From assembly GCA_025963725.1 (NCBI GenBank), contig JAOQAE010000003.1:248001-312000 (forward strand): 64,000 bases of DNA. Reading direction: 5' to 3'. Origin of the DNA: Bacteroidota bacterium. Its GTDB lineage: Bacteria > Bacteroidota > Bacteroidia > 2-12-FULL-35-15. Shown here one piece after another: positions 5,941 to 35,225 of the stretch; the stretch's first letter is position 1, and every line of letters starts with the position of its first letter. The translations under genes were made by a program, and so were the position numbers. Under the pieces are notes generated by a model. The model saw only the letters and a list, made by a program, of their open reading frames with translations. It was not told the origin of the DNA and searched no databases.

Positions 5941-6555
5941 TTATTCTTCTTCCGTAACCTCTTTGTATTTGTTGATCATCTTGTGGCCTTTCAGCGTGCA
6001 GATCCCGTGAAGGAAGTGATCGATCATGGCCAGCTGCACATCGAGGAGCCTGAACTTATCAGGAGGGAAAACTTCCGAATTGAAGCCCATCTCCACCTGC
6101 TCGATCCGGAGGCGTGCAAGCACCTTTGCATTCAAGTCGGTACGCACAAGCCCTTCGCGGATCCCTCTTTCGATGGAATCCTCCACCATTCTCGCCATGC
6201 AGTTATGCTTGAACTCCTTGAACTGCATCCATGCCTTGGGATGATATTTCTGGAGGTCGTAAAAAATATTGGGGTTTACCTTTGAGAACATGTTGCCCAT
6301 GTGCTTCATCATATTAAACACCTCCACGATCACATTCTCAGAATCCTTCTGGATCTGCTTGAACTCGCATTCGTCTTTTTTAAGCCCGATCGACATCAGC
6401 GTTTCAACCAGCTCGTTCTTATCCTCGAAGTATTGGTAAATGGTCTTTTTGGAAATAGCGAGGTGCCTGGCGATATCGTCCATCGTTACGCTTTTGATCC
6501 CGTACCTGAAAAACAATTCTTCCGCACCTTGCACAATTCTGTCTTTTGTTTCCAT
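5941..6555 (-). CDS. TetR/AcrR-family transcriptional regulator of the efflux operon
   Basis: DNA-binding regulator of 204 residues. The N-terminal TetR helix-turn-helix is clear at about residues 5-50 (IVQGAEELFFRYGIKSVTMD, then DIARHLAISKKTIYQYFEDK). The C-terminal ligand-binding half is unlike any TetR subfamily I can name. It is the first gene of the operon with the TolC, adaptor and RND genes, the common arrangement in which the regulator represses its own transcript until an effector binds. A perfect Bacteroidota promoter and candidate operator repeats lie just upstream (separate entries). The start at 6555 is 23 bases from the promoter -7 element, giving a short leader. Confidence 0.93.
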   Translation of the reverse strand: METKDRIVQGAEELFFRYGIKSVTMDDIARHLAISKKTIYQYFEDKNELVETLMSIGLKKDECEFKQIQKDSENVIVEVFNMMKHMGNMFSKVNPNIFYDLQKYHPKAWMQFKEFKHNCMARMVEDSIERGIREGLVRTDLNAKVLARLRIEQVEMGFNSEVFPPDKFRLLDVQLAMIDHFLHGICTLKGHKMINKYKEVTEEE

Positions 6556-6577
6556 TCGCTTTTTTGAAATTTCGGCG

Positions 6578-6607
6578 CAAAACTATGGAAACATTTTTTA
6601 TTCCCAA
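6578..6607 (-). promoter_or_regulatory. Bacteroidota-type promoter of the tetR-efflux operon
   Basis: On the minus strand, TTG (6605-6607) is separated by exactly 19 bases from TAGTTTTG (6578-6585). This matches the Bacteroidota primary-sigma consensus TTG-N19-TAnnTTTG at every fixed position. Transcription would begin near 6572, leaving a leader of about 17 bases before the ATG at 6555. Confidence 0.8.
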
Positions 6608-6614
6608 CGTTTCC
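6587..6614. promoter_or_regulatory. Candidate TetR operator: inverted repeat over the promoter
   Basis: The half-sites GGAAAC (6587-6592) and GTTTCC (6609-6614) form an exact inverted repeat that brackets the -33 element and spacer of the promoter. A third related motif, GAAACGTTTTTC, lies at about 6669-6680. TetR repressors often bind such dyads over their own promoters. That this one is bound is inference. Confidence 0.4.
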
Positions 6615-6839
6615 TATCAATTATTTTTGGATGATTTAGGTAACGAATTGATAATCAACCCTAAAAAAGAAACGTTTTTCGTGTCCGGAGTTTCCGGGGG
6701 CAAGTGCCTGCCTTCAGGGTTTCCTCTTTTTCCCGTTTATGAATTCACATAATAATCTAAATTTCAGCCTTTTGTTGATTTATAATTCCCCGAAAAGGAC
6801 TAATTTAGCCACCTGCTTAAAAAAAATTAAACACACTTC

Positions 6840-9800
6840 ATGAAACAACCCTTACTTCGCGCCAGCCGTATTTTTCTAATTTTCAGCCTTTTAACAGGAA
6901 GCTTAGCTGCACAGGACCTGTGGACGCCTTCCGAGAAAACCGGCTTCGGGGATAATACCGACTATGCGGCGCGTGCAATGCATGCCTTCAAAGGAAAGAT
7001 CTATGCCGGGGTAGGGCAAAATACCGGCCTTTTATACAGCTCGCCAACGGGAAATATGGGCAGCTGGGCAACTTCCTTCACTGCTCCCTACGTGACCAGC
7101 GTGGATGACATTACCACCACTGCCGACGGTGGAGGATACATCTATATTTCCGCCTTTGCCTATGGCGGGGATGTGCCTAAAGTTTACCGCTCTGCCGACG
7201 GCGCTTCCTGGGCGACATTTTATAACGGGCAAAACGCCATCAACGATATTATCGCGTTTAAAGGCCTCGGCATTACCGACAGCATTTATACATTTGAAAA
7301 TGGCAGCTTCGGAACGGTTATAAAACGCGCACCTTATAATGTAATGGACCCTCTCGATACGCTGGGCACCTGGGATACCGTAATGGATTTCGGCTCAGTT
7401 TCTCCCTATACTTTCGTACAATGCAAAGCGATCCACAACGGGAAGCTGTATATCGGGACCTCCAACGGGGGCAACCTCTGGAGCACCGGCAACGGAACCA
7501 CCTGGCTGCAGAACACTAACGTGGGAACCGGTTTCGGCGATAGCAATAACAATACGATCTCCGCGCTTGAATCATTCGGCGGCTACCTCTACGCCGCTAC
7601 TTTTAATTATGCAACAGGCACGCAGATCTGGCGCTCCAACGATGATGTTACATGGACGATGGTTGCGCAGTATCCCGGCTATGATGAGATCACCGATTTT
7701 GAAGTGGCAGGCGGACAGCTCTGGGCGGGTATGAAGCCGTCATCCACAGGTGTTGCACAGATCGTAAGGACCAGCGACGGATTATCGTACACGCTTTCTT
7801 CCGACACCGGCTTTAACGATCCGAACAACCTTGGAAATTATGCAAACTTCTGCGTGTTCGGGAACAGCATCTATTATGCCTGTGAGAATTACGGGTATAC
7901 CATGCCAAGCACAATAGCCGAAACAAGGGGAATTGGATATTCAACCGGTGCACAGATCTGGAGAAGCTGCCTTGTAACGCCTCCGGCGATCAGCATTGGC
8001 GCCGACCAGGTTGTATGTACGGGAACACCCGCCAGCTTCAACGCTGATCCGGGATTTACCGCTTATCTATGGGATGATGGCAGCACTTCACAATTGCTCT
8101 CCACTACTTTTGCAGGGGCCCATTACGTGATCGCAACCGATGTGAATGGCTGCGATGCAATGGATACGGCGAGCCTTTCGCTTCTTCCCGTACCAAACGC
8201 AACCATCATCAGCCCGGCAGCTTTTTCAACGGTCTGCGCCGGAAACAGCGTAAGCGTAAGCGGTTCAGCAGTATCGAATGTACGCCTGCCGCAGCCGCCT
8301 GTTTCAAGGGTTTGCAACGTTCCGGTCGACTATTCATTAGGAAATACGTTTGATACAATGGCTGTAACGGGACTTACCGAATGCGCCTGCACCTCGCTGT
8401 ATTCGGTGACCATCGACAGTCTTTACCACCCATACGACGGCGATGTTTCGATCGGGCTGTATTCTCCTTCCGGCTATTTCATCAACCTTTTATCCGGTGC
8501 GTACGGAGTAAATTTCATAGGCACGGAGCTCGTGATGAGCGGCACCGGTTACCCGGGAAATATCGGAAGCGCGCCCTTTACAGGGCAGTTCCTTCCGGCT
8601 GATCCCTTCAGCGATCTAACAGGAACGCCAACAGGTAACTGGATCATCCAGCTGAGCGATAGTTACGTTTCCGACAACGGCGTATTAAAAGGATGGACCC
8701 TGAAATTCACCAAAGCGGATTCCATCCTTACCTATTCCTGGAACCCAACCACCGGCGTGAGCATGAGCAGCAGCCTGAACACGGCCATTACGCCACCCGT
8801 TACTTCCAACTACATTTTAACAACAACCAATACCGTTGGCTGTGCCGACTCTGATACGCTGAGCTTTTTTGTGCCTTCCATCATAATTGCCGCATCAAGC
8901 GATTCTATCTGCGCGGGCATGAGCACAACGCTTATGTCTGACGGAACAGTGAACACCTCCTGGATGCCGCCCGGCACACTGAGCAGCAGCACAGGCATCA
9001 GCGTGATCGCTACGCCGCCCGTTACCACCATGTATTATGCTTCCGATGTTATCGGCGGCTGTTTCGCAAGCGATTCGGTGCTGATCACGGTAGATGCCCC
9101 GATCATTGTGAATGCAGGCGCCGACCAGTCGATCTGCTTCGGCGATCTGGCAAACCTTACAGGCACTGCAAGCGGCGGAACAGCGCCCTACAGCTTTCTC
9201 TGGAGCGGCGGTGCCGTTTCTGTACCAGCCTCAACTGCAACGGTGAGCCCTTCGGCGACCACCACCTATAATTTCTTTGCAAGCGATGCTTTCGGCTGCA
9301 CAACCAGCGATTCAAGCAGGGTAAACGTTGCGCCAAGCACCGATGTTTATGGCCATGTTGGCGCTCCCGGCGCTGTGAATGTTGCCGGCAGCAATGTATT
9401 GCTTTACAAATATTACCCGGTGCTCACGCATTTCGATACCGTGCAAACCACCGTTACCGATGCTTCGGGGAACTATCATTTCTCTTCGGTGGATCACAAC
9501 GATTACCTTATTGAAGTGTTCCCGGCAGCATCCTACACTACGCTGGTGCCAACCTATTACGGCAACAAGTTCATGTGGGATTCTGCCACTGTGGTGAATC
9601 ACTTCTGCGCAATAAATGATACGCTTGATATTATGATGATCGCAGAGCTGGGATTAGCCGGCGGCCCGGGCTACCTGCACGGCCGCATTGTTGAAGACAC
9701 AGGATACGTAAGGGTACCGGGCGATCCGGTTCCGGGCGTGGATGTGAAATTAGGGCGTAACCCGGGCGGACAGCTTGTTACAAACGGACAAACAGACAGC

Positions 9801-10268
9801 AACGGCGAATACGAATTCATGAACGTTCCTTACGGCAATTATACGGTGTATGTAGACATCCCGGGATTGGGAAGAGATTCGTCCTACACCTTCACAGTGG
9901 ATTCCGTAAACAGCGTATACAACTACCTCGATTACATCGTGGATTCAACCACCATTTACATTGTGCCGAATGCAGGCGTGGGTGTTCATGACGTTGCAGC
10001 CGCCGCAGAAAAATTCAATGTTTATCCGAATCCTTCAAAAGGCAATGCAACTATTGAATATACAATTGCTTCTGATACTGAAGTATCCCTTGGAATTTAC
10101 AACATGCTGGGCGTAAAGGTCGCCGACCTTGTGAATACGCACCAGCAGGCAGGAACATATAAATACTCTATCAGTGATAAAAGCAGCGGGCTTCGCTCGG
10201 GGGCTTATTTTGTTGCACTGGTAACGAACGGAAAAACAGCAATACACAAGATCATCATCACAGAATAA
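6840..10268 (+). CDS. Large secreted T9SS cargo protein with propeller, P-domain and Ig-like modules (paralogue 1)
   Basis: Secreted or surface-anchored protein of 1142 residues; no enzymatic function can be assigned. A signal peptide ends near residue 25 (SLAAQ). Residues 26-375 hold repeated strands with a WRSxD..TW pattern, resembling a kelch/sialidase-like propeller. A short Ig-like module follows (IGADQVVC). At about 494-622 there is a proprotein-convertase P-domain ending in LTGTPTGNWIIQLSD and GVLKGWTLKF. Further Ig-like modules each start NAGADQSIC or similar. From 834 a CNA-B/SdrD-like domain (DVYGHV... to GDPVPGVDVKLGRNPGG...) is followed by a type A T9SS sorting domain at about 1056-1142 (FNVYPNPSKG, ending KIIITE). 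First of three tandem genes; 16 bases separate it from the next. Probably an adhesin or matrix protein. Confidence 0.9.
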   Translation: MKQPLLRASRIFLIFSLLTGSLAAQDLWTPSEKTGFGDNTDYAARAMHAFKGKIYAGVGQNTGLLYSSPTGNMGSWATSFTAPYVTSVDDITTTADGGGYIYISAFAYGGDVPKVYRSADGASWATFYNGQNAINDIIAFKGLGITDSIYTFENGSFGTVIKRAPYNVMDPLDTLGTWDTVMDFGSVSPYTFVQCKAIHNGKLYIGTSNGGNLWSTGNGTTWLQNTNVGTGFGDSNNNTISALESFGGYLYAATFNYATGTQIWRSNDDVTWTMVAQYPGYDEITDFEVAGGQLWAGMKPSSTGVAQIVRTSDGLSYTLSSDTGFNDPNNLGNYANFCVFGNSIYYACENYGYTMPSTIAETRGIGYSTGAQIWRSCLVTPPAISIGADQVVCTGTPASFNADPGFTAYLWDDGSTSQLLSTTFAGAHYVIATDVNGCDAMDTASLSLLPVPNATIISPAAFSTVCAGNSVSVSGSAVSNVRLPQPPVSRVCNVPVDYSLGNTFDTMAVTGLTECACTSLYSVTIDSLYHPYDGDVSIGLYSPSGYFINLLSGAYGVNFIGTELVMSGTGYPGNIGSAPFTGQFLPADPFSDLTGTPTGNWIIQLSDSYVSDNGVLKGWTLKFTKADSILTYSWNPTTGVSMSSSLNTAITPPVTSNYILTTTNTVGCADSDTLSFFVPSIIIAASSDSICAGMSTTLMSDGTVNTSWMPPGTLSSSTGISVIATPPVTTMYYASDVIGGCFASDSVLITVDAPIIVNAGADQSICFGDLANLTGTASGGTAPYSFLWSGGAVSVPASTATVSPSATTTYNFFASDAFGCTTSDSSRVNVAPSTDVYGHVGAPGAVNVAGSNVLLYKYYPVLTHFDTVQTTVTDASGNYHFSSVDHNDYLIEVFPAASYTTLVPTYYGNKFMWDSATVVNHFCAINDTLDIMMIAELGLAGGPGYLHGRIVEDTGYVRVPGDPVPGVDVKLGRNPGGQLVTNGQTDSNGEYEFMNVPYGNYTVYVDIPGLGRDSSYTFTVDSVNSVYNYLDYIVDSTTIYIVPNAGVGVHDVAAAAEKFNVYPNPSKGNATIEYTIASDTEVSLGIYNMLGVKVADLVNTHQQAGTYKYSISDKSSGLRSGAYFVALVTNGKTAIHKIIITE

Positions 10269-10284
10269 TTTTTTACGAAGCACA

Positions 10285-13200
10285 ATGAAACATCTTTCCC
10301 TTAAAGCAGGCGCATGCATTTTAATGCTTGGCGCTGCCATCGGCCTGCAGGCCCAGAACCCATGGACGCCATCTGTTACCAACGGTTTCGGAAACTCATA
10401 CAACAGCACGGTTTTCGGCATGAACGTGTTCAACGGGCAGCTGTATGCCGCAGTTGGAACCGACAGCGGTTATGTGTACAGGTCGCCGAACGGGAATCCC
10501 GGCTCCTGGACAAAAGTATTTTCGGACCCTCTTTCGAGATCTGTTGAGGCCATCACATCGAGCAGCGTGGGCGGCGGGAATATGTACATCGCTGCTAATG
10601 CCGGCTTTCCCGATTCATCAAGAGTAATGCGCTCTGTGGATGGAACCAGCTGGAGCACTTATTTTACAAGCTCCTCCGCTAAAATAACACACATCATCCC
10701 TTTCAAGGGCTTAGGCTCCGCTGATTCCATCTATGTGGTGGAAAACAACGGCCTTGTACATAAATCATATTACAACAGCAACGATCCGCTGAACCTCAGC
10801 GCTGCATGGGATACCGTTTTTGATGCTAACCTTTTTGCCTCCGGCTCAATGGTTACGGCTATCGGAAAGCACGGCAGCAAGCTGTACCTCGGCGGGCCCG
10901 ATGCTCAGCTCTTCAGCTCGGCTGACGGAAACACCTGGACAGCAAACCCGAATGTGGGCAATGGCTTCGGAGACGCTAACAACCAATCGGTAACAGCCAT
11001 CGGCTCCTTTGGCGGAGAGATCTATGTGGCGATGCAGAATAATTATATCGGCGCGCAACTCTGGAAGTCGGCCGATGAGATCAGCTGGACAATGGTGCAG
11101 CAGTTCGACGGTGCGCATGCGTATGTGAGCAGCCTTACTGTTGCCGACGGCAAACTCTGGGTAACTGTTGCAAGCAATCTGGATGGGGGACTGATCACTT
11201 ACACGGGCGACGGAGTGAACTTCACAGTATCGGACGACGGCGGCTTTGGCGATGCAGGCTATAACGGCTATAATGCCTCTGTGCTCCAGTTCGGGAACAA
11301 TGTATACTGGGGCGGTGAATACTATGGGATGTTTAAAAGATTCCCTCTCATTACGCAAGGCGCATCGGTTTGGAGAACATGCACTGTTACGCCTCCTGCT
11401 ATCAATGCAGGCCCCGACCAAACCGTTTGCCAGGGCATATCCGTTACGCTGGATGCAGGAAGCGGGAATGCTTACAACTCCTGGAGCACAGGCGATACCA
11501 CACAAATGATCTCTGTTTCCACACCCGGCACCTATACTTTAACGGCTGTAGGGGCTAACGGCTGTACAAATACTGATAATGTCCGCGTGTTCAACAACCC
11601 GGCTCCTACCGTGCTTCCGCCAAACGGGGGCGGGACTATTTGCGCCGGAACTTCCGTGCCGCTGTTTCCTCTTGCAGTATCTAACTATTATATTGCCGAT
11701 CCTCCTATTCATACAACAACGAACGATTCGATCAGCGACCTGATCGGTGGGGATGTTTACGATACGATCAACGTAAGCGGCCTGTCAGCAGCATGCTCCT
11801 GCGATGCGTTAATGTCGGTCACCATCGACAGCCTTTACCATACCTTCAGCGCCGATCTTGATATCGGGATCTACGCGCCTGACGGAAGCTACATCACGCT
11901 CAGCCAGAGCAACGGCGGAGGTGCAGGCAATACCTATTTCGGAACGGAGTTCATCCTGAATGCCACTGAATCGATCATGTCGGCCAACACTCCATATACC
12001 GGCTCTTATGTGCCGATGGGTGATTTTCACTCGCTCTCCGGAACCCCGAACGGCAACTGGGTGCTGCGTGTTCAGGATCATGTGGGCGGCGATAACGGAA
12101 CACTGAAAGGCTGGACCATCCGCTTTAAGGTGGACGACACCACCATGACCTTCTCCTGGACACCGGCAACGGGATTATCATCTACCACAACATTGAATAC
12201 CATCGCAACACCCTTAGTTCCTACTACCTACATGTTAACAGCAACCAATGCTATCGGCTGCTCTACAACAACGCCGATCCCGGTGGATGTTGCCGACCTT
12301 GCCTTTGCGCAGGCAGTGGACACGGTATGCTACGGAAGCTCCATCACGCTCAACGTAATTGGCGGAACAGCCAGCACTACCTGGTCGCCAACTACCGACC
12401 TTGATGTTTCCACCGGCCCAACCGTGGTGGCATCGCCATCGGCAAGCACCGTGTATTATGTGGTGGATACGATCGCCGGCTGCCCTGTAATGGATTCCAT
12501 TCACCTTTATGCAAATGCACAGCTGTTCCTCACAGCGCCATCTCCGGTGACGATCTGTAACAACGATACCGCAACCTTCACAGCAACTGCGAACGGCGGA
12601 AGCGCACCATACACCTATGCATGGGATATGGGCGGAACATACCTGTACGGACAAACCATCCAGCCGGTGCTTACAGGCGGGACCTCGTACACGCTTACTG
12701 CTACAGATATTGCCGGATGTACCGTGAACGGCGGATCCACCAGCGCCTTTGTAGTGCCGAGCACCGATATTTACGGACATGTTTCCTACTCGGGCGGAAG
12801 CGTGAACAACAGCGCAGTGGTGCTTTATCGCTATGAGCCGTTCCTGACACTGTTTGACACTGTACAGACAACCTTCACCGATGCTTCCGGCGATTACTTC
12901 TTCCCTTCGGTGGACCACAACAATTACCTTATTGAAGTGTTCCCGGCTGCGTCATATACCACGCTGGTGCCAACCTATTACGGCAATGCTTATCTATGGG
13001 ATTCGGCAGCGTTTGCAAGCCACGATTGCGCCATGAACGATACCTTCAATATTGTGACCGTTGAGGAAACAGGGCTTACTGGCCCCGGCTTCCTGCAGGG
13101 CAGTATACTGGAAGACATCGGGTTCGGAAGGGTTCCGGGCGATCCGGTTCCGGGTGTGGATGTGAAGCTGGGACGTAACCCGGGCGGACAGCTTGTTGCA

Positions 13201-13695
13201 AGCACGCAGACCAACGGCAGCGGAACATACACTTTTGCAGGCGTACCTTACGATTCGTACATTATCTATGCCGACATCCCGGGATTAGGAAGGGATTCAT
13301 CCTACACCATCACAGTGGATGCCTCACACGATACGTATACCGATCTCGATTACCTTGTAAATGACACTGTAATCTTCATTGTTCCGAACACTACAACAGG
13401 CATTACCACGCCGGGAAGCACTTCAGCAGCGGCAAGCACCTTCAGCGTGTTCCCGAACCCCTCGAACGGAAATGCAGCCATTGAATACAGCATTGTGGAC
13501 GATGCAACGGTATCTCTCGGAATTTACAATGTGCTTGGCGTAAAGGTCATCGGCCTTGTAAGCACGAAGCAAATGCCGGGCGTTTATCATTACAGCATCA
13601 GCAGGGAGAAAAACCAGCTGAAGCCGGGAGTGTACTTTGTAACATTGATCACGAACGGGAAAACAGACATTCACCGTTTGGTAATAAGTGAATAA
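10285..13695 (+). CDS. Large secreted T9SS cargo protein, paralogue 2
   Basis: Protein of 1136 residues with the same module order as its upstream neighbour. It has a signal peptide (to about residue 24, GLQAQ), a propeller-like region opening NPWTPSVTNGFGNSYN, Ig-like modules, and a P-domain at about 477-617 ending GTPNGNWVLRVQD / GTLKGWTIRF. A CNA-B-like domain starts near 827 (DIYGHVSYSGG), and a T9SS type A domain runs from about 1052 (FSVFPNPSNG, ending RLVISE). The N-terminal half has diverged, while the stretch ASYTTLVPTYYGN through GDPVPGVDVKLGRNPGG is nearly identical to paralogue 1 at both protein and DNA level. Only 16 and 18 bases separate it from its neighbours, so the three are probably one transcript. 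Function unknown; surface adhesion or matrix is inferred from architecture. Confidence 0.9.
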   Translation: MKHLSLKAGACILMLGAAIGLQAQNPWTPSVTNGFGNSYNSTVFGMNVFNGQLYAAVGTDSGYVYRSPNGNPGSWTKVFSDPLSRSVEAITSSSVGGGNMYIAANAGFPDSSRVMRSVDGTSWSTYFTSSSAKITHIIPFKGLGSADSIYVVENNGLVHKSYYNSNDPLNLSAAWDTVFDANLFASGSMVTAIGKHGSKLYLGGPDAQLFSSADGNTWTANPNVGNGFGDANNQSVTAIGSFGGEIYVAMQNNYIGAQLWKSADEISWTMVQQFDGAHAYVSSLTVADGKLWVTVASNLDGGLITYTGDGVNFTVSDDGGFGDAGYNGYNASVLQFGNNVYWGGEYYGMFKRFPLITQGASVWRTCTVTPPAINAGPDQTVCQGISVTLDAGSGNAYNSWSTGDTTQMISVSTPGTYTLTAVGANGCTNTDNVRVFNNPAPTVLPPNGGGTICAGTSVPLFPLAVSNYYIADPPIHTTTNDSISDLIGGDVYDTINVSGLSAACSCDALMSVTIDSLYHTFSADLDIGIYAPDGSYITLSQSNGGGAGNTYFGTEFILNATESIMSANTPYTGSYVPMGDFHSLSGTPNGNWVLRVQDHVGGDNGTLKGWTIRFKVDDTTMTFSWTPATGLSSTTTLNTIATPLVPTTYMLTATNAIGCSTTTPIPVDVADLAFAQAVDTVCYGSSITLNVIGGTASTTWSPTTDLDVSTGPTVVASPSASTVYYVVDTIAGCPVMDSIHLYANAQLFLTAPSPVTICNNDTATFTATANGGSAPYTYAWDMGGTYLYGQTIQPVLTGGTSYTLTATDIAGCTVNGGSTSAFVVPSTDIYGHVSYSGGSVNNSAVVLYRYEPFLTLFDTVQTTFTDASGDYFFPSVDHNNYLIEVFPAASYTTLVPTYYGNAYLWDSAAFASHDCAMNDTFNIVTVEETGLTGPGFLQGSILEDIGFGRVPGDPVPGVDVKLGRNPGGQLVASTQTNGSGTYTFAGVPYDSYIIYADIPGLGRDSSYTITVDASHDTYTDLDYLVNDTVIFIVPNTTTGITTPGSTSAAASTFSVFPNPSNGNAAIEYSIVDDATVSLGIYNVLGVKVIGLVSTKQMPGVYHYSISREKNQLKPGVYFVTLITNGKTDIHRLVISE

Positions 13696-13713
13696 ACCTT
13701 AACCCATAACAAC

Positions 13714-15927
13714 ATGAAACATACTCTTTCTTACAAGCTGAAACTTGCCTTTGGCGTTCTTTTACTGGCAGGAACAGTACGTTCAGTTGCACAGCCGCTG
13801 GTAGCCAATGCAGGGCTTTCCACCACGATCTGCTCCGGCAGCTCCGCAAGCCTCGGTGGTTCTCCGAGCGCAAGCTACGGTTCCGCACCATATACGTATT
13901 CGTGGGCGCCGGCAACGGGATTAAGCTCAGCAACAGTTTCTAACCCGACAGCAACTCCCGGCACCAACGTAACTTATACGCTTACCGTAACGGATGCTGT
14001 ATCAGCGGTAGCTACTTCAACGGTAACTGTTACTGTGAACCCTACACCCATTATCGTGGTGAACTCTCCTTCGGTTTGTGCGGGGATGTCGGCCTCGCTG
14101 ACTGCTACCGGCGGCAGCGGCTACTTCTGGAGCCCGGGAACTTACCTGAGCTCTGTATCCACAGCAAGCCCAACCTGTATCACACCTGCTGCGACAATTA
14201 CCTATACCGTTAGCGGAACCGCAGGCGGATGCACAGGCACAGCCCTTTCAACCGTAACTGTTGACCCGGTGCCAAGTCCGTATGCCGGTTCAGACCAGAC
14301 TGTATGCACCGGCGACCCTGTTACCTTTTCCGCATCCGGCGGTGGGGGAACCACGTATTCATGGGACTTCGGCGATGGCGTAAACTCTACCCTTCTGAGT
14401 CCCACGCATACCTATGTAGTGCCCGGAACTTACACGGCAACACTCACCTCTGCTACCGGCGCCGGCTGTTCCGGTACCGACAATGTGATCATCACCGTGA
14501 ACCCAAACCCTGTGATCACCATTACATCGGTAACGAATGCCAGCTGCAACGGTGTGTGTGACGGGAGCATGACTGCTGCGGGCAGCGGCGTACCCGGCCC
14601 CTTTAGCTATGCCTGGGCACCCAGCGGAATTTTCGCTGCAGTAGCGCCTTCACTTTGTGGAGGAATAACCTACACGGTAACAGTCACCAGCCCTACCGGC
14701 TGCTCTTCAACGCAGGTTGCCAGCATTACGGAGCCTCCCGCCATTATGGTAAATGCAGGCCCTGACCAAAACGTTTGTACCGGCAGCACTACCACACTGA
14801 ATGGTTTTGCTACAGGCGGCACAGCACCATACACCTTCAACTGGAATGATGGCTCTTCCAATTATCCCGGCCAAAATCTTACAGCCTCACCTGTGTCCGG
14901 AACATCGTATACATTTACCGCTACGGATGCTTCCGGATGCGTTGCAGCTGATTATGCTTCGGTAAGCATCCTTCCCTTAACCGATTTTTACGGCCATGTG
15001 AGCTATTCCGGCGGAAGCCTCTCCTCGGGGACAAACCCTGTGGTGCTTTATCAGTTCAATGCTGCCACCAATGGCTTTGATACGGCAATGGTGAGCACCA
15101 CCGACGCTTCAGGGAATTTCCATTTTGCTTCCGTAGGATCCAATAATTATATCGTTAAAGCATTCAACGACACTGCCGCCTATCCTTTGCTGATCCCGAC
15201 CTATTACGGCGGCGCTTATGTATGGGATTCGGCTACTGTAAGAGTACACGATTGTACCGCAACCGACACCACAGACATCGTAATGCTGGAAGTGCCGCTG
15301 TTGAGCGGGCCCGGGCATGTTGACGGCGCTGTGCTCGAAGGCTCAGGATTTGTAAGGATCCCGGGCGACCCTGTACCGGGCGTTGACATTAAGCTTGGGC
15401 GCAACCCGGGCGGACAGCTGGTTGCAAGCGGACAGACGGATGCTTCGGGCACTTACTCATTTGATAATCTCCCGGTGAACCTTGCCGGTGAAAATTACAG
15501 GCTGTATGTGGACATCCCGGGGCTCGACAGGGTCTCAACCTACGATTTCGTGGTCAGTGGAACAGGCATCACGCAATATTTCGACCTCGACTTTGAAGCG
15601 GATTCCAACTCCGTTTACACCACGCAAACTGCCATAGGCATCAATACCCCTACGGAAAAAGAAAATGCGATGAAGGTGTACCCGAATCCCGCGAAAGAAA
15701 ATGTAACCGTTGACTACACGCTTGCAGCTGATGCGAAAGTATCGCTCGAAGTGTACAACATGCTCGGCCTGAAAGTGGCGGCTCCGTTCAGCAACAGGCA
15801 GTCGGCTGCGGGAAGCTACAACTACACGATCAACACGGCAAACTATAATTTAAAGCCCGGAGTATATTTTATGTCGCTCCGCGTGGATGGCAAAACAACC
15901 GTTCAGCGCGCAGTGATCACTGAATAA
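13714..15927 (+). CDS. Secreted T9SS cargo protein with PKD/Ig-like repeats, paralogue 3
   Basis: Protein of 737 residues. The signal peptide ends near residue 27 (SVAQP). Unlike its two neighbours it lacks the propeller and the P-domain. Instead it has Ig-like modules beginning VANAGLSTTICSG, then a PKD domain at about 190-270 (TYSWDFGDGVNST...SPTHTYVVPGTYTATLT), and another Ig-like module (VNAGPDQNVC). The C-terminal part matches the paralogues: a CNA-B-like domain from about 423 (DFYGHVSYSGG; RIPGDPVPGVDIKLGRNPGG) and a T9SS type A domain from about 650 (MKVYPNPAKE, ending RAVITE). Last gene of the tandem set, followed by a strong terminator. This looks like a shared C-terminal chassis carrying different display modules. 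Confidence 0.9.
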   Translation: MKHTLSYKLKLAFGVLLLAGTVRSVAQPLVANAGLSTTICSGSSASLGGSPSASYGSAPYTYSWAPATGLSSATVSNPTATPGTNVTYTLTVTDAVSAVATSTVTVTVNPTPIIVVNSPSVCAGMSASLTATGGSGYFWSPGTYLSSVSTASPTCITPAATITYTVSGTAGGCTGTALSTVTVDPVPSPYAGSDQTVCTGDPVTFSASGGGGTTYSWDFGDGVNSTLLSPTHTYVVPGTYTATLTSATGAGCSGTDNVIITVNPNPVITITSVTNASCNGVCDGSMTAAGSGVPGPFSYAWAPSGIFAAVAPSLCGGITYTVTVTSPTGCSSTQVASITEPPAIMVNAGPDQNVCTGSTTTLNGFATGGTAPYTFNWNDGSSNYPGQNLTASPVSGTSYTFTATDASGCVAADYASVSILPLTDFYGHVSYSGGSLSSGTNPVVLYQFNAATNGFDTAMVSTTDASGNFHFASVGSNNYIVKAFNDTAAYPLLIPTYYGGAYVWDSATVRVHDCTATDTTDIVMLEVPLLSGPGHVDGAVLEGSGFVRIPGDPVPGVDIKLGRNPGGQLVASGQTDASGTYSFDNLPVNLAGENYRLYVDIPGLDRVSTYDFVVSGTGITQYFDLDFEADSNSVYTTQTAIGINTPTEKENAMKVYPNPAKENVTVDYTLAADAKVSLEVYNMLGLKVAAPFSNRQSAAGSYNYTINTANYNLKPGVYFMSLRVDGKTTVQRAVITE

Positions 15928-15943
15928 TTAAACAGGAACAGCG

Positions 15944-15987
15944 AAAAGGCCATCTTCCAGATTTCGGAAGGATGGCCTTTTTGTTTT
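15944..15987 (+). terminator. Rho-independent terminator after the T9SS triplet
   Basis: A GC-rich stem formed by ggccatcttcc and ggaaggatggcc (one bulge) with a 5-6 base loop is followed by TTTTTGTTTT. It closes the three-gene unit 17 bases after the last stop. Confidence 0.85.
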
Positions 15988-16062
15988 AGGGGACGCATTG
16001 CCAAACCCTAAAAAATTCGTTTTTTTGCATGCCTGAAAAGGCCTTAATTAAAACTCAATACA

Positions 16063-17505
16063 ATGGAAACGGGAAAAAGAACAAAAGTGAAAGAGCTGTT
16101 GAATTCAACGGCGTATGGAAGCGAAGTAACTGTAAAGGGCTGGGTGCGCACATTCCGCAACAACCAGTTCATTGCGGTGAATGATGGTTCTACGATCAAT
16201 AATATACAGGCGGTTGTTGATTTTGCCAACACGGACGAAGCGCTCCTCAAACGCCTTACTACCGGCGCCGCCATCAGCATCACCGGCGAACTGATCGAAT
16301 CCCTTGGCAAAGGCCAGAAGGTGGAAGTGAAAGTGAAGCAGCTGGAGATCCTTGGCGACAGCGACGCAGAGAAATTTCCGCTGCAGCCGAAAAAGCACAG
16401 CCTCGAATTCCTGCGCGAGATCGCTCACCTGCGTTTCCGCACCAACACATTCAATGCTGTGTTCAAAGTGCGTCATGCGCTTGCATTTGCAGTGCACCAG
16501 TTCTTCAACGAAAGAGGGTTCGTTTACCTGCATACGCCGATCATCACCGCTTCGGATGCCGAAGGCGCAGGAGAAATGTTCCGTGTAACAACGCTCGACT
16601 TTAACAACACACCGCGCACAGAGGGCGGCGATGTTGATTACAAGCAGGATTTTTTCGGACGCTCCACCAACCTCACGGTTTCCGGCCAGCTCGAAGGTGA
16701 GCTTGCCGCGATGGCATTGGGCGAGATCTATACCTTCGGGCCAACATTCCGCGCCGAGAACTCGAACACAACCCGCCACCTCGCCGAGTTCTGGATGATA
16801 GAGCCGGAAGTTGCCTTCGCCGACCTTGGCGATAACATGCAGCTGGCGGAAGACCTGTTGAAATACGTGATCGCCCACGCGATAAAGAACTGCGCCGACG
16901 AGCTGGAGTTTTTAAAGAACCGTTTGCTGGAAGAAGAAAAGCTGAAGCCGCAGGATGAGCGTTCGGAGCTGGACCTGATGGCGAAGCTGAACTTCTGCCT
17001 CGATAATAACTTTGAGCGCCTTACCTACACCGAGGCGATCGAGATCCTGCGCAACTCCAACCCGAACAAAAAGAAAAAATTCAAATACCTGATCGACAGC
17101 TGGGGCGCCGACCTGCAGAGCGAGCATGAGCGCTACCTTGTTGAGAAGCATTTTAAAAAGCCGGTGATCCTTACCGATTACCCGAAAGACATTAAATCGT
17201 TCTACATGCGTATGAACGACGATGGAAAGACAGTTGCCGCCATGGACATCCTCTTCCCGGGAATCGGCGAGATCGTTGGGGGCTCGCAGCGTGAGGAGCG
17301 CCTTAACCTACTTGAAAAACGCATGGGCGAAATGCACATCCCGGCAGAAGAATTATACTGGTACCTCGATACAAGAAGGTTCGGGACTGCGCCGCATGCA
17401 GGCTTCGGACTTGGCTTCGAAAGGCTGGTGCTGTTTGTTACCGGAATGACGAACATCCGCGATGTGATCCCTTTCCCAAGGGCGCCGAAAACAGCGGAGT
17501 TTTAA
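16063..17505 (+). CDS. asnS: Asparaginyl-tRNA synthetase
   Basis: Class IIb aminoacyl-tRNA synthetase of 480 residues that charges tRNA-Asn with asparagine in the cytoplasm. The N-terminal OB-fold anticodon-binding domain is at about 15-110 ([20 protein letters not shown]). The catalytic domain follows. Class II motif 2 is seen in [20 protein letters not shown] at about 230-249. Motif 3 is seen in [20 protein letters not shown] near 445-464. Length fits bacterial AsnRS (about 465-480). The PTAEF-like C-terminus and [12 protein letters not shown] are AsnRS rather than AspRS features. Monocistronic, with its own terminator downstream. Confidence 0.97.
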
Positions 17506-17527: not shown

Positions 17528-17563
17528 AAACCTCCCCAAATTCATTTGCGGAGGTTTTTTTTA
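17528..17563 (+). terminator. asnS: Rho-independent terminator of asnS
   Basis: Stem aacctcc / ggaggtt with a 14-base loop and a run of eight T. It starts 22 bases after the asnS stop. Confidence 0.8.
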
Positions 17564-17587
17564 TATCTTTATTCACCTTTAAGAACA

Positions 17588-20500
17588 TTGAGAACACTCC
17601 TTAAAATATTTATTGCGGCAGCCGTTTTACTTACGGCTCAACTCAGTGTTTTCGCCCAAACCTACGACTTCCGGAATTTCAACGTGGAGGACGGCCTTGC
17701 ACAGTCGCAGGTGCTTTCTATGTGCCAGGACCGCTACGGCAACATCTGGTTCGGGACCAACAGCGGCGGCGCCAGCAAATACGATGGCAATAAATTCACC
17801 ACGCTCAGCGAGAACGACAGCTTAGCCAACAACGTTGTGTTTTCCATTACGGAGATCAGCAACGGAAAACTTCTTTTCGGCACCAACGGCGGGTTAAGCG
17901 TGTACAATGGAAAAACATTCAGTAATTACAGCGATAAGAACGGGCTTCCGCATAACCGCGTTTTTAAAACCGTTCAGGATGCCAAAGGCAGGATCTGGGT
18001 AGGAACTGCAAAAGGCGTTTGTCTGTTCACAGGCAGCTCTTTTATCCCTTTTGAGGAAGACACTGTATTGAACAATGCAACGGTATATACCATCTATCCT
18101 GATAAAGCGGGCAATATCTGGTTTGGCACGCTGGGCGACGGCGCCATCAAATACAATCCCGACACGAGGCGCTTCAGTCATTTTAATGCAAGCAACGGAC
18201 TACGGAACAATTCCGTAAGGGCTATCAATGAAGACATACAGGGCGACATATACATCGGGACGCTGCAGGGCATCCGCAGGATCACACCGCTGGGCTCCAT
18301 TGAAAAAGTGAACATCATACAAGAGGAGAATGTTGGCTTTACCGACATTATCGCGGATAACAAGAACAACCTGTGGCTGGCGTCCTCCAACGGTGTTTAC
18401 AAATACAACGGCTTTGCCTACCGCAATTACAAGCAGGAAAACGGGCTTGCGAGCAACGATCTTTATTCCGCTTTCCAGGACAGGGAAGGCAATCTCTGGT
18501 TCGGAACGCTGGGCTACGGCGTTTCAAAATTTTCGGGAGAGGCCTTTGTTTATTATGGCACCGACGATGGCTTACCGGGCGATTACATCAATGCTATTTT
18601 TGAAGATTCCAATAAGAACATGTGGTTCGGGATCAAAGGCTATGGCGTGTGCAAGCTGAAGAACAACCAGGTTGCCAATTACAGGCTTGATCCGAGAAAC
18701 GCGGAAGTTTCGCTGGCGGATGATGCGGTGCAGGCAATTGGCGAAGACAAGCAGGGCAATATGTATTTCGGGACCATTTCCGGCCTCAGCATTTACAACG
18801 GCGCCTTTCACAACTATTATAAAAAGGACGGACTGCCGGATGAAAATATTTATTCCATCCTGAAAGATTTCAACGGTACCATGTGGATCGGAACAGCCAA
18901 CGGATTGTGCTATTTCGAGGGGGATAAGATCAAAACGGCGGACGCTGTGGGGAAGTTTGCGAGCGAGCGCGGCACCACTCCCGTGTTCTGCATTTTCGAG
19001 GACAGGGGACACAACCTCTGGCTGGCAAGCGAAGACGGCGTGCTGAAATACAACCGCAAGACAGTGGTGAAGTACAATAAAAGCAATGGCTTTACCGACA
19101 AAAGGGTATTGTCGATCGCGCAGGACAAGAACGGATACCTCTGGTTTGCCACGGGAGAAGGCGTTTTCAGCTATAACTTCAGCAGCTTCGAAAAGATCGA
19201 CCAGAACAAAGGCCTGAGCGCAAACAAAGTTTATCTCGTTACCACCGACAATAACAACAACCTCTGGGCAGGCACTACCAAGGGGATCGACCGCATCAGC
19301 CTCGAAACGTATCATGCAAGCAACAAGATCGACATCAAGCATTTCGGAAAAGATGATGGATTAAAAGGCGTGGAATGCAACAGGAACGCCAAGTTCAAGG
19401 ACAGCAACGGAAACCTTTGGTTCGGCACCATTAAAGGCGTAACGGTTTATAACCCTCATTTCGACAGGATCAACCGCAAGGAAGCGCTGACACGCATTAC
19501 CGGCATCCGCCTGTTCTTCCAGAATGCCGACGAGGACCTTGCAAAGTATTCAAAGGGCATCGACAGCATCAGCCACCTGCCGGTAAACCTTGTGCTGCCT
19601 TATGATAAGAACCACATCACCTTCGATTTCATCGGCGTGTGCATCACCAATCCAAATAAAGTAAAATATCAGTTCAGGCTGGAAGGCGCCGATGAGGACT
19701 GGTTCCCCCCTACCTCTAAAACAGAGGCAACGTATTCATCGCTGCCTGCCGGCGATTATACCTTTCACCTGAAGGCTATGAACAACGACGGCCTCTGGAA
19801 TGAGCATGATGTAACATTTAAATTCAGCGTGCTTTCGCCCTGGTACAAAACCTGGTGGTTCTACACCATCGTGGGTATCTTCGCGCTGGGCTGCATTTAC
19901 CTGTTCATTACCGTACGCACACGCAACCTGCAGAAAGCAAAAATAGAGCTGGAGCAGGAAGTGGAGCTGCGCACCTACCAGCTGCGGCAGGAAAAGGAAA
20001 AAGTGGAAGTGATCAACAAGGAGGTGATAGAGCAGAAGGCGATCATCGAAGCGAAGAACCACGACATCACCGACAGCATCAAATACGCGAAGAACATACA
20101 GGAAGCGCTGCTGCCGCCCTTGCAGAATTTACATTCGGAGCTCAGGGAAGCGTTTGTGCTGTACCAGCCGAAAGATATTGTGAGCGGCGATTTTTACTGG
20201 TTCGCCAAGCGGAACAACAAGCGCTTTGTGGCATCGGTAGATTGTACGGGGCATGGTGTTCCGGGTGCCTTTATGAGCATCATCGGGAATACGCTGCTAA
20301 ACGAGATCGTAACGGAAAAGAATATTATTCAGCCGGCAGAGATCCTCGACGAGCTGCATGCCGGCGTAAAAACAGCGCTGAAGCAAAGCGAGAGTGAGAA
20401 TGAACGCCGCGACGGAATGGACATCGCGCTCTGCTCGCTCAACGAAGAAGGCACGATCCTCGAGTATGCCGGCGCCAACCGCCCGCTCTGGATCTTCCGG

Positions 20501-20839
20501 AAGAACAAGCAGGGTGAAGAAGCCTTCGAAATGACCAAGGCGAATAAGTTCCCGATCGGCGGCATGGAGCTGCATGCAAATGAAAAACGCAAGTTCACAA
20601 ATCACTCCATTCCCGTTGAAAAGGGAGATATGATCTATATTTTTTCCGATGGCTATGCCGATCAGTTTGGCGGCGACAAAGGTAAAAAGTTCATGGTAGG
20701 CAACATGCAGAAGCTGGTTGCCGAGATCTACCACAAGCCTGTTGAAGAGCAGGAAAAGCTCTTGTCCAAAGCCTTTCACGACTGGAAAGGCGGCCTTGAG
20801 CAGATCGACGACGTGCTCGTTATCGGATTCCGCATTTAA
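17588..20839 (+). CDS. Membrane sensor with two-component-type propeller, Y_Y_Y domain and SpoIIE phosphatase
   Basis: Periplasmic-sensing serine/threonine phosphatase of about 1083 residues. I chose a TTG start at 17588, giving a clean signal peptide (RTLLKIFIAAAVLLTAQLSV, then FAQ). The longer frame from TTG 17546 begins inside the asnS terminator. Residues 25-630 hold about a dozen 'reg_prop' propeller repeats of the form D..GNLWFGT..GV..Y.G. A Y_Y_Y domain follows near 680-750 (YQFRLEGADEDW, AGDYTFHLKA). One membrane helix (WWFYTIVGIFALGCIYLFIT) is at about 755-775, then a coiled coil, then a PP2C-like SpoIIE domain at about 830-1083 (DIVSGDFYWF, DCTGHGVPGAFMSIIGN, IFSDGYADQFGG). The usual partners of SpoIIE enzymes are STAS anti-anti-sigma proteins; none is encoded nearby. 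rpoN follows 69 bases downstream. Confidence 0.9.
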   Translation: MRTLLKIFIAAAVLLTAQLSVFAQTYDFRNFNVEDGLAQSQVLSMCQDRYGNIWFGTNSGGASKYDGNKFTTLSENDSLANNVVFSITEISNGKLLFGTNGGLSVYNGKTFSNYSDKNGLPHNRVFKTVQDAKGRIWVGTAKGVCLFTGSSFIPFEEDTVLNNATVYTIYPDKAGNIWFGTLGDGAIKYNPDTRRFSHFNASNGLRNNSVRAINEDIQGDIYIGTLQGIRRITPLGSIEKVNIIQEENVGFTDIIADNKNNLWLASSNGVYKYNGFAYRNYKQENGLASNDLYSAFQDREGNLWFGTLGYGVSKFSGEAFVYYGTDDGLPGDYINAIFEDSNKNMWFGIKGYGVCKLKNNQVANYRLDPRNAEVSLADDAVQAIGEDKQGNMYFGTISGLSIYNGAFHNYYKKDGLPDENIYSILKDFNGTMWIGTANGLCYFEGDKIKTADAVGKFASERGTTPVFCIFEDRGHNLWLASEDGVLKYNRKTVVKYNKSNGFTDKRVLSIAQDKNGYLWFATGEGVFSYNFSSFEKIDQNKGLSANKVYLVTTDNNNNLWAGTTKGIDRISLETYHASNKIDIKHFGKDDGLKGVECNRNAKFKDSNGNLWFGTIKGVTVYNPHFDRINRKEALTRITGIRLFFQNADEDLAKYSKGIDSISHLPVNLVLPYDKNHITFDFIGVCITNPNKVKYQFRLEGADEDWFPPTSKTEATYSSLPAGDYTFHLKAMNNDGLWNEHDVTFKFSVLSPWYKTWWFYTIVGIFALGCIYLFITVRTRNLQKAKIELEQEVELRTYQLRQEKEKVEVINKEVIEQKAIIEAKNHDITDSIKYAKNIQEALLPPLQNLHSELREAFVLYQPKDIVSGDFYWFAKRNNKRFVASVDCTGHGVPGAFMSIIGNTLLNEIVTEKNIIQPAEILDELHAGVKTALKQSESENERRDGMDIALCSLNEEGTILEYAGANRPLWIFRKNKQGEEAFEMTKANKFPIGGMELHANEKRKFTNHSIPVEKGDMIYIFSDGYADQFGGDKGKKFMVGNMQKLVAEIYHKPVEEQEKLLSKAFHDWKGGLEQIDDVLVIGFRI

Positions 20840-20908: not shown

Positions 20909-22366
20909 ATGTTAAGGCAGGTACAGACACACAAACTATTACAGAAATTATCACCTCAGCAGATCCAGCTGATGAAGCTGCTGCAATTGCCTACCATTGC
21001 CCTCGAACAGCGAATCAAAGAAGAGATGGAGATGAACCCGGCCCTTGAAGAAGGTGCGGAAACGGACGATGAGCCGCGCGACGAATTTGAGAACGACGAA
21101 TACGAAGAGCCGAACCCAAGCGAAGATAACAAGCGCGACGATTTTGCGCTTACCGATTACATGGATGATGACGAGGGCAGCTCCTACAAGCTGAAGGTGA
21201 ACAACGCCGGCCCCGACGAAGAGCGCAAAGAGATCCCTTTTTCCGTAGGCCTTACCTTCCAGGACATGCTGGAAAGCCAGCTCGGCATGAAAGCGCTGGA
21301 TGACCGCCAGTACCAGATCGCTGATTACCTCATCGGCAACCTCGATGACGATGGCTACCTGAGAAGGGACCTTGGTTCCATTGTTGACGATATCGCATTT
21401 TCCCAGAATATTATTACCACCGAAGCAGAGATGCTCGAGCTCCTGAAAGTGATCCAGGATTTTGACCCGGCAGGCGTTGGCGCAAGGGACCTTCAGGAAT
21501 GCCTGCTGATCCAGCTGCGCAAGCGTGAAGTTCAGACACAGATCGTTGAGCTGGCCACCGAAGTGGTGGAAAAGCAGATGGATGAATTTTCAAAGAAGCA
21601 TTACGATAAGATCCAGAAAAAGCTCGAGATAGATGATGAAACGCTGAAGGAAGTGATCAACGAGATCCTGAAACTCAATCCGCGCCCGGGCAATTCCATG
21701 GCCGACGGACAAAAAAGCTACCAGCAGGTGATCCCCGATTTTACGATCACTGTGGAGGATGGTGAATTATTGCTGGGACTGAATTCACGCAACGCACCCG
21801 ACCTCAAGGTGAGCCGTGAATACAATAAGATGTTCGAGGAGTATTCGAAAACAAAGAACAAGGAAAGCAAGGAAGCATCGATGTTCATCAAGCAGAAGCT
21901 GGATGGCGCACGCTGGTTCATCGACGCGATCCAGCAGCGGAACCAGACGTTGCTTTTCACTATGAATGCCATCATGGAATACCAGCAGGATTATTTTCTT
22001 ACCGGGGATGAAACCCTGCTGAAGCCGATGATCCTGAAAGACATTGCAGAGAAAGTGGGACTGGATATTTCTACGATCTCACGTGTTGCCAACAGCAAAT
22101 ATGTTCAAACGCCTTTCGGAACGTTCCTGCTAAAAACATTTTTCAGCGAATCGCTTTCCACCGACAGCGGAGAGGAAGTATCGACAAGGGAAGTGAAAAA
22201 GATCCTGTCGGACTGCATTGGCGCCGAAAATAAAAAGAAGCCGCTTACCGATGATAAGCTTGCAAAGATCCTGAAAGAAAAAGGATACAACATCGCCCGC
22301 AGGACTATCGCTAAATACCGCGAGCAGCTGGAGATCCCGGTGGCGAGGCTGAGGAAGGAGCTGTAG
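20909..22366 (+). CDS. rpoN: RNA polymerase sigma-54 factor
   Basis: Alternative sigma factor of 485 residues, which directs RNA polymerase to -24/-12 promoters and needs AAA+ activators. The Gln/Leu-rich activator-interacting region I is at residues 5-50 (QTHKLLQKLSPQQIQLMKLL). An acidic linker covers about 50-95. The core-binding domain runs to about 300, followed by the HTH domain. The RpoN box is intact near the C-terminus (ARRTIAKYREQLEIPVARLR). Length is normal for the family. No bacterial enhancer-binding protein is encoded in the window, and I saw no convincing -24/-12 site. A palindromic repeat starts directly after the stop codon. Confidence 0.97.
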   Translation: MLRQVQTHKLLQKLSPQQIQLMKLLQLPTIALEQRIKEEMEMNPALEEGAETDDEPRDEFENDEYEEPNPSEDNKRDDFALTDYMDDDEGSSYKLKVNNAGPDEERKEIPFSVGLTFQDMLESQLGMKALDDRQYQIADYLIGNLDDDGYLRRDLGSIVDDIAFSQNIITTEAEMLELLKVIQDFDPAGVGARDLQECLLIQLRKREVQTQIVELATEVVEKQMDEFSKKHYDKIQKKLEIDDETLKEVINEILKLNPRPGNSMADGQKSYQQVIPDFTITVEDGELLLGLNSRNAPDLKVSREYNKMFEEYSKTKNKESKEASMFIKQKLDGARWFIDAIQQRNQTLLFTMNAIMEYQQDYFLTGDETLLKPMILKDIAEKVGLDISTISRVANSKYVQTPFGTFLLKTFFSESLSTDSGEEVSTREVKKILSDCIGAENKKKPLTDDKLAKILKEKGYNIARRTIAKYREQLEIPVARLRKEL

Positions 22367-33007: not shown

Positions 33008-33079
33008 ACTCTGCCCTAACATAGTAAAAAATTGCGCCTGCGAACAATTCTCCACAGTTTCGGCAAAAACCTTTCGGCC

Positions 33080-34966: not shown

Positions 34967-35225
34967 TCGTTTTTTTGCTTGGAAAACAACAATATTGTTG
35001 CCAGCTAAAATTGCGCTGAATGCTGCAGGACCGGGGCTAAGGCGGTTGAATTTTTTCCTCAGTTTTTCGTCATGATCCACATTAACACAGGAATCTTTTC
35101 TTTCGTTTAAGGAACTTGCAGGACAAAAGCACGATCTTGCAGATTATTCCCCTGGATTGACATAATGCATTTTTATTACGTTAACAGGTGATCTACTTTT
35201 GGGCAGTATTCATTAATCCTACATC

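Follow-up and report, generated by a model that had tools for sequence, protein, structure and literature searches.

Our analysis of a 64,000-nucleotide stretch of Bacteroidota DNA (the window) points to a site at which exchangeable heads are carried on a constant chassis and sorting tail, and we hold it somewhat probable that this site, between tetR and asnS, has been varied through duplication and deletion of genes and through recombination in the chassis. Three adjacent genes, A, B and C, occupy the site (Table 1). They share one strand and, as the original prediction stated, are separated by gaps of only 16 and 18 bases, and they are probably co-transcribed as one operon. The hairpin 3' of C is possibly a terminator by prediction; the terminator scan requires a loop of 3-8 nucleotides, and this hairpin is not in its list. 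The product of the gene at the left edge is presumably a TetR-like regulator, and asnS at the right edge is taken to encode asparaginyl-tRNA synthetase.

Table 1. Features of the chassis-gene array and its edges, in positions of the window.
Feature	Position	Strand	Description	Basis
tetR-like regulator gene (presumed)	5941..6555	-	left edge of variable site	
gene A	6840..10268	+	1142 aa; beta-propeller, P-domain, Ig/SprB-like, chassis, T9SS type A tail	ORF, Pfam, model
chassis of A	9339..10019	+	CarboxypepD_reg/SdrD_B-like double beta-sandwich; runs from TDVYGHV up to the T9SS tail	
A-B tract, A side	9669..9935	+	excess shared codons; putative gene-conversion tract	
T9SS type A C-terminal sorting domain of A	10020..10268	+	stop included	
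gene B	10285..13695	+	1136 aa; architecture as in A	ORF, Pfam, identity comparison
chassis of B	12763..13446	+		
A-B tract, B side	13087..13353	+	excess shared codons; putative gene-conversion tract	
T9SS tail of B	13447..13695	+	stop included	
gene C	13714..15927	+	737 aa; PKD/SprB-like passenger, chassis, T9SS type A tail	ORF, Pfam
chassis of C	14980..15675	+		
T9SS tail of C	15676..15927	+	stop included	
hairpin 3' of C	15944..15981	.	18-nt arms (83% complementarity) around 2 nt, with A/T ends	
asnS (presumed)	16063..17505	+	right edge of variable site	
SpoIIE phosphatase gene	17546..20839	+	Reg_prop propeller, Y_Y_Y, SpoIIE phosphatase	

The heads are of different types, in agreement with the early reading of a propeller and P-domain in A and B and a PKD/Ig-like part in C. 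Pfam matches exceeded the cut-off for P_proprotein in A and B and for PKD_4 in C. The propeller of A is supported by a predicted model, built from an alignment of A, B and two genes of the related genome G009, whose first approximately 330 residues have block pLDDT values mostly of 75-93 and which has propellers among its PDB matches; with A as the query, no solved relative was found by sequence at E 0.01. The chassis is the shared two-sandwich region of approximately 230 residues between the passenger and the type IX secretion (T9SS) tail. Both CarboxypepD_reg and SdrD_B exceeded the cut-off in A, CarboxypepD_reg alone did so in B and neither in C (SdrD_B 40.2, 26.8 and 27.9 bits in A, B and C, respectively; Pfam cut-off 29.7). 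Likeness to SdrD B/CNA-B and carboxypeptidase-regulatory-like domains is seen in the Pfam matches and in the Foldseek matches of the chassis model (SdrD B1-B2, streptococcal pilins and other beta-sandwich proteins), but the matches of B and C lie partly below cut-off and the model is of low confidence (pLDDT 63, pTM 0.38). The tails of A, B and C scored 42.0, 33.1 and 46.8 bits with Por_Secre_tail (cut-off 27) and 41.1, 33.3 and 39.4 bits with TIGR04183 (cut-off 23), and the translations begin with what reads by eye as a signal peptide: a basic start, a hydrophobic stretch and small residues before AQ. The 20-residue motif GDPVPG...GGQLV was located at 9720-9779, 13138-13197 and 15364-15423, with one residue differing in C. 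The motif and T9SS signal ascribed to all three proteins were recovered, and the CNA-B-like domain over cut-off in A and B. The genome also encodes T9SS machinery (SprA_N, 574.8 bits; PorV family, four of six matches over cut-off) and at least 150 sorting tails (150 scored out of 263 candidates).

Variation of the site is seen among relatives. Among the 36 genus genomes covered, 18 have tetR and asnS as neighbours on a single contig; five of these sites are empty, the two genes lying about 305-773 bp apart, and the other 13 hold one to four chassis genes each. Of the chassis genes, 33 were scanned with Pfam; the heads of relatives include YCF48/BNR, NHL, FG-GAP, PKD and Ig-like repeats. Relatives indeed differ in copy number and module sets. 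G009 has orthologues of A and B with matching architecture and gene order. The chassis tree, which also includes L065, a fourth and divergent chassis gene from this genome (left out of the pair counts), likewise pairs A and B each with its G009 orthologue. This lends no support to recent head swapping here, and the heads change slowly in this lineage. In the nearest genome by asnS (G018, 96%) the sequence breaks off at the site. The proposed swapping on a constant scaffold is supported in the relatives, with their changed heads and copy numbers, and is not supported as a recent event in this genome.

Head, chassis and tail were compared in 32 successive chassis-gene pairs from 23 loci (chassis matches below 40 bits left out), all 32 on the same strand and with gaps of -41 to 3557 bases. 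Amino acid identity was higher in the chassis than in the N-terminal part in 29 of the 32, and a synonymous excess of z > 3 was observed in the chassis of 10 pairs, the N-terminal part of two and the tail of five (Wilcoxon, chassis versus N-terminal part p = 0.039, tail versus N-terminal part p = 0.0039). Four gene pairs were profiled; in three (G015.2/.3, G029.1/.2 and G003.1/G048.1) amino acid identity rises from approximately 0.2-0.5 to 0.8-1.0 in a stretch of about 20-60 residues where the chassis begins, a step absent in the pair from G002. Synonymous sites of G015.2/.3 and G029.1/.2 are alike in chassis and tail, with the heads at chance level, and tail identity reaches 0.74-0.79 in some relatives' arrays. 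For 15 first-type genes, the passenger and chassis trees rejected each other (AU p 9.6e-5 and 0.0047). Close orthologues diverge evenly, the excess in head, chassis and tail being 0.73, 0.76 and 0.88 for G007/G049 and 0.67, 0.64 and 0.88 for G006/G044. These boundaries might also have arisen if whole chassis-plus-tail units were copied onto unrelated secreted proteins by fusion or capture, rather than heads exchanged between existing genes, an origin that we consider possible but doubtful. The several fold families among relatives' heads and the joint likeness of chassis and tail in G029 and G015 would fit such copying, but the tail of G003.1/G048.1 departs from the chassis (amino acid identity 0.52 versus 0.88) and related head types recur at matching array positions.

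Among A, B and C, the DNA at the motif is, as first noticed, more alike (identity 91.7% for A-B and 80% for both A-C and B-C) than the N-terminal parts (0.51, 0.46 and 0.43 for A-B, A-C and B-C, respectively); divergence along the genes is thus not uniform, which favours swapping. Of the 20 motif residues, 16 share their codon in A-B, 10 in A-C and nine in B-C. Outside the chassis A and B have about 40% amino acid identity, and the three tails 0.46-0.61. Over the whole chassis, A and B use the same codon at 86 of 143 shared residues versus 59.8 ± 5.8 expected, a value reached in none of 1000 shuffles; the corresponding figures are 62 of 114 versus 47.8 ± 5.1 for B-C (four of 1000 shuffles) and 51 of 108 versus 47.2 ± 4.9 for A-C (243 of 1000). 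Gene conversion across all three genes was rejected, with A-C codons at expectation and the B-C excess weak; as read from the sequences, the A-C likeness and most of that between B and C is ordinary protein conservation. In the A-B tract of approximately 265 bp, codons are identical at 42 of 59, more than in all 12 comparisons with orthologues or relatives, namely A with G009.1 (33/74), B with G009.2 (24/52) and ten further ones (20/65 to 25/52); the tract test of codon sharing covered three gene pairs, with p-values uncorrected for this number. Since the tract is more shared between A and B than by either gene with its orthologues, gene conversion between them is likely there. The homogenised chassis postulated for the triplet is consequently reduced to one A-B tract, with none for A-C and a weak case for B-C. 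At codon positions 1 and 2 the A and B chassis still group by orthology (25 sites versus 13). The third-position A-B excess in the chassis (26 versus 11 and 12) is mirrored less strongly in the heads (58 versus 57 and 37), an indication that shared codon usage contributes to it.

The codon data bear as well on an explanation without recombination, in which A, B and C are three old duplicates with the chassis under stronger purifying selection and DNA likeness simply tracks protein likeness. The expected codon sharing of the A-C chassis would agree with it, as would the 22 of 32 array pairs without a chassis excess of z > 3 and the conservation of the chassis, with 38 positions at ≥80% in 53 sequences and the family carried by 59 of 149 sampled genomes of the class. 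A synonymous excess is also found in chassis pairs across genomes (z > 3 in 19 of 45 pairs, median 0.17, close relatives included; the 45 were picked for highest chassis similarity, matches below 90 bits left out), so slow codon change accounts for part of the synonymous signal. Nevertheless, the codon sharing of the A-B tract exceeds every orthologue or relative comparison, the G015 and G029 pairs are synonymously alike in chassis and tail with heads at chance, and the passenger and chassis trees conflict; we therefore regard this explanation as unlikely. A phase-variable antigen system, in which some cassettes are expressed and others silent, akin to the variable surface display once suggested, is very improbable: it would fit a constant part with variable heads in tandem, but A, B and C are all intact with their own starts and short gaps, no silent or broken cassette is present among these ORFs, promoter-like sites are fewer than in shuffles (6 versus 10.7), and the flanks searched (6400-6900 and 15900-16100) hold only short, imperfect inverted repeats, three pairs of 77-83% complementarity in the former.

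Under the preferred reading of exchangeable heads on a constant chassis, A, B and C would be T9SS cargo composed of a passenger head, the two-sandwich chassis and a sorting tail. Beside the observed domain anatomy, we infer surface display, in which the tail would carry the protein through the outer membrane and the chassis would most likely remain as a cell-proximal stalk. Chassis genes would be gained and lost between tetR and asnS, with tandem duplication and deletion driving array evolution. The recombination step would use conserved chassis DNA as a homology arm; crossovers in the chassis could set new heads on an old stalk, and conversion tracts may homogenise chassis pairs such as A and B. 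Glycans or matrix proteins are a guess for the ligands of the heads. With 0-4 genes per site, conflicting trees and boundaries at one domain edge, the site offers a natural series for surface change in environmental Bacteroidota.

A scheme with varying heads is not unprecedented, the closest known systems being the KLIKK proteases of Tannerella and the adhesin rearrangements of Porphyromonas. The KLIKK proteases of T. forsythia combine different catalytic parts with a nearly identical T9SS-type C-terminal domain, the extension including a region of 140-160 residues that differs between most members; their six genes lie in two clusters, are absent from a close relative, and fusion or capture was proposed for their origin (PMC4404884). 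Both systems thus comprise several secreted proteins with different heads and a T9SS-type C-terminal part. However, the KLIKK heads are proteases, whereas A, B and C match no protease family in Pfam or NCBIfam (the metallopeptidase matches in NCBIfam are confined to the tail and score far below the cut-off). KLIKK proteins end in KLIKK (PMC4404884), A, B and C in IITE, VISE and VITE; the KLIKK C-terminal domain is nearly identical among members, against the 0.46-0.61 of the array tails, and the constant part of the array includes the double sandwich, which many genomes of the class carry. T9SS surface proteins of P. gingivalis are likewise diversified by domain rearrangement and allelic exchange (PMC5266723). 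This was shown between strains of one species (PMC5266723), whereas chassis genes differ between species and families and have the C-terminal stalk at the centre.

A further idea, which we put forward as quite improbable, is that the chassis marks a class-wide family of surface receptors with exchangeable heads, each acting together with the SpoIIE-type sensor phosphatase encoded next to it. The partner would read the chassis or its state and stay unchanged as recombination at the chassis changes the heads; if the link to SpoIIE genes holds, it would suggest a function for some of the many unexplained phosphatases. In the open-access literature, no paper was found that connects SpoIIE to type IX secretion or to propeller regulators in Bacteroidetes, while five turned up on type IX secretion and gene conversion, most subscription journals being outside this scope. 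The genome studied has 45 SpoIIE-family matches and no general excess near T9SS genes: 13 of the 45 have a sorting tail at most 5 kb away versus 10.9 expected (p 0.31) and seven have one at most 3 kb away versus 7.0, measured start to start to the 150 listed tails with contig sizes partly estimated. Hence any such link may be confined to the chassis family. SpoIIE-type phosphatase genes adjoin chassis genes in seven of 23 loci outside the genus versus about one expected, in a non-random set picked for tandem arrays and family spread, with four loci on short contigs. The neighbours in G029 and G035 had been noticed beforehand, and the SpoIIE model was built from nine proteins that included theirs; with both excluded, five of 21 loci remain versus about 0.87 expected (p about 0.002, calculated by hand). 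In the window, a gene of this type follows just past asnS and is a candidate functional partner of the chassis proteins.

The three neighbouring genes A, B and C genuinely form an array; they encode T9SS surface-type proteins whose C-terminal part is constant and carries signs of recombination. They are arranged head to tail with spacings of 16 and 18 bases, and the reading frames and Pfam matches bear out the original prediction of a tandem triplet with differing N-terminal parts, a common C-terminal region and a T9SS tail. Pfam placed a propeller-like front, a P-domain and Ig/SprB-like repeats in both A and B, some matches being below the cut-off, and PKD_4 with SprB-like repeats in the N-terminal part (head or passenger) of C. 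The common region of ~230 aa, here called the chassis, is matched by CarboxypepD_reg and SdrD_B, and profile matches place a type A T9SS sorting tail at the C-terminus of each protein. The genome (4.79 Mb in seven contigs, with the window at C3:248001-312000) encodes at least 150 T9SS sorting tails, and the T9SS components SprA and PorV were matched in it; T9SS genes are part of the basis for assigning it to the Bacteroidota. Its fourth chassis gene, divergent with a score of 43 bits (L065:7184-9976; G000:C3:657471-658040), adjoins further sorting-tail genes. AlphaFold modelling of the C-terminal 310 residues of A gave strands throughout at modest confidence (pLDDT 63, pTM 0.38), a model that may be read as three successive beta units, namely two chassis domains and the tail. 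Its best Foldseek matches were mixed beta-sandwich proteins with low TM scores of about 0.2-0.3, including a B. anthracis surface protein, SdrD B1-B2 and streptococcal pilins. The front ~330 residues of A, modelled with block pLDDT mostly 75-93 and with many propellers among the PDB matches, are predicted to be a propeller.

Features of the array and its surroundings (tetR and asnS putative)
Feature	Position	Strand	Description
tetR	5941-6555	-	left edge of variable site
A	6840-10268	+	ORF
B	10285-13695	+	ORF
C	13714-15927	+	ORF
Hairpin	15944-15981		A/T ends, 3' of C
asnS	16063-17505	+	right edge of variable site
SpoIIE gene	17546-20839		Reg_prop propeller, Y_Y_Y and SpoIIE phosphatase domain; next after asnS

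Gene conversion or domain swapping had been proposed among all three genes, and nucleotide-level comparison supports gene conversion for A and B. Their 60-nt motif has 91.7% identical bases and 16/20 codons the same, versus 80% in A-C (10 codons) and B-C (9 codons). In the chassis of A and B, 86/143 residues common to both have an identical codon, a value reached in 0/1000 synonymous shuffles, while codon sharing in their N-terminal parts is near expectation (149/328; 50/1000 shuffles). The chassis excess is weaker for B-C (4/1000) and was not detected for A-C (243/1000). In a best-segment scan, the excess for A-B mapped to 9669-9935 / 13087-13353 (p 0.001, uncorrected for the three pairs tested); for A-C and B-C the top segments were marginal (p 0.064 and 0.040) and fell at other positions. 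In this tract A and B have 42/59 codons the same, compared with 33/74 for A and its orthologue in the related genome G009, 24/52 for B and its own, and 20/65 to 25/52 in ten further comparisons. On these orthologue comparisons, the most economical interpretation is an exchange of the tract between A and B, later than the divergence from G009. Exchange of the whole chassis would agree with its third codon positions, which favour A-B grouping (26 vs 11 and 12), but is opposed by positions 1+2, which favour orthology (25 vs 13), by the heads, whose third positions also group to some extent by genome (58 vs 57 and 37), and by the chassis protein tree, pairing A and B each with its G009 orthologue.

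A survey of the chassis, asnS and tetR across the genus (36 available genomes) showed that copy number varies from 0 to 4 chassis genes at the tetR-asnS site. The two flanks adjoin on one contig in 18/36 genomes. Five of these sites are empty, with about 305-773 bp between the flanks and gene order confirmed by tblastn (G016, G019, G012, G023, G045), and the other 13 hold one chassis gene (G003, G006, G044, G049, G007), two (G042, G043, G048, G010, G041), three (the window and G001) or four (G009). In the remaining 18 genomes the flanks are on different contigs, far apart (about 50 kb in G002) or one was not found; among them, chassis arrays lie beside asnS in G015 and G024, and within the fetched stretch asnS occurs without tetR in G020, G051, G004 and G014. 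TPR-repeat genes stand between array and asnS in G009 and G042 (L046:15746-18666, L076:3929-5329), and none in the window.

Head types also differ between genomes. The tetR-side gene has a P-domain at 7/9 occupied sites scanned (not in G010 and G048), and at seven of eight multi-gene sites the last gene bears PKD, SprB or Ig-like repeats, that of G001 having no recognised head. Elsewhere, the chassis bears YCF48/BNR propellers, an NHL propeller or FG-GAP repeats. Where the chassis begins, identity climbs steeply, across about 20-60 residues, in three of the four profiled pairs (G015.2/.3, G029.1/.2 and, between species, G003.1/G048.1), with no such step in G002. For 15 genes of the tetR-side type, each part's alignment rejected the tree of the other (AU p 9.6e-5 for the chassis tree on the passenger alignment, 0.0047 for the reverse), a conflict to which the long G010/G048 passenger branch may add. 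The G015 array also contains, between chassis genes, an 801-aa collagen-repeat and Kelch protein (L050:7183-9588) adjoining an ORF of 164 aa that encodes a sorting tail.

Across the class, the chassis was found at E 1e-8 in 59/149 sampled genomes, 13 of the 59 having at least two matches within 7.3 kb (counted by eye). All 32 successive chassis-gene pairs in 23 fetched loci are on the same strand, and in 29 of them conservation is higher in the chassis than in the head. Synonymous excess (z > 3) was observed for the chassis in 10 pairs, for the head in 2 and for the tail in 5 (chassis vs head p 0.039; tail vs head p 0.0039). Such excess also occurs in 19 of the 45 most similar cross-genome chassis pairs; slow codon change or a shared choice of codons therefore accounts for part of the signal. 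Within arrays the conspicuous cases are G029.1/.2 (excess 0.65), G015.2/.3 and G002 (0.48), A-B (0.35) and G043 (0.32). Five consecutive chassis genes of G114, from another family (L107:6136-18916), showed no synonymous excess in the chassis and have dissimilar tails (0.19-0.27 aa identity).

The original prediction likened the array to variable surface displays. Since A, B and C are intact and tightly packed, it is probably not a switching system; we infer one transcript from which the three proteins are made together, partly on account of the hairpin after C. Promoter-like sites (6 vs 10.7, by models other than the Bacteroidota promoter type) and terminator-like sites (7 vs 12.9) were fewer than in shuffled sequence. 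The hairpin, its loop shorter than the scan allows, is missing from the terminator list, and this slightly lowers our confidence in the overall explanation, a T9SS operon with constant chassis and recombining heads, which we still somewhat favour.

This kind of system is already known from KLIKK proteases (PMC4404884) and P. gingivalis adhesins (PMC5266723). The class-wide chassis, variable tetR-asnS site and phosphatase neighbour were not found in the published literature searched. Outside the genus, 7/23 loci have a SpoIIE gene no more than 5 kb from the chassis genes, versus 0.99 expected (p 8e-5), in a non-random sample of one locus per genome with two cases known before the test. Six of these genes are 94-241 bp away and the seventh 836 bp; five have the Reg_prop/Y_Y_Y/SpoIIE architecture (G035, G121, G063, G033, G078) and two TPR/SpoIIE (G029, G062), spanning six families (G035 and G121 share one). 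T9SS genes at large showed no SpoIIE-neighbour excess in this genome, and we regard the association as a lead. In the window, a sigma-54 (RpoN) gene (20909-22366) immediately follows the SpoIIE gene, and further on a gene for a glycogen debranching enzyme (31064-33055) adjoins one (33080-35080) whose product is a glycosyl hydrolase 26 protein carrying a T9SS sorting tail.
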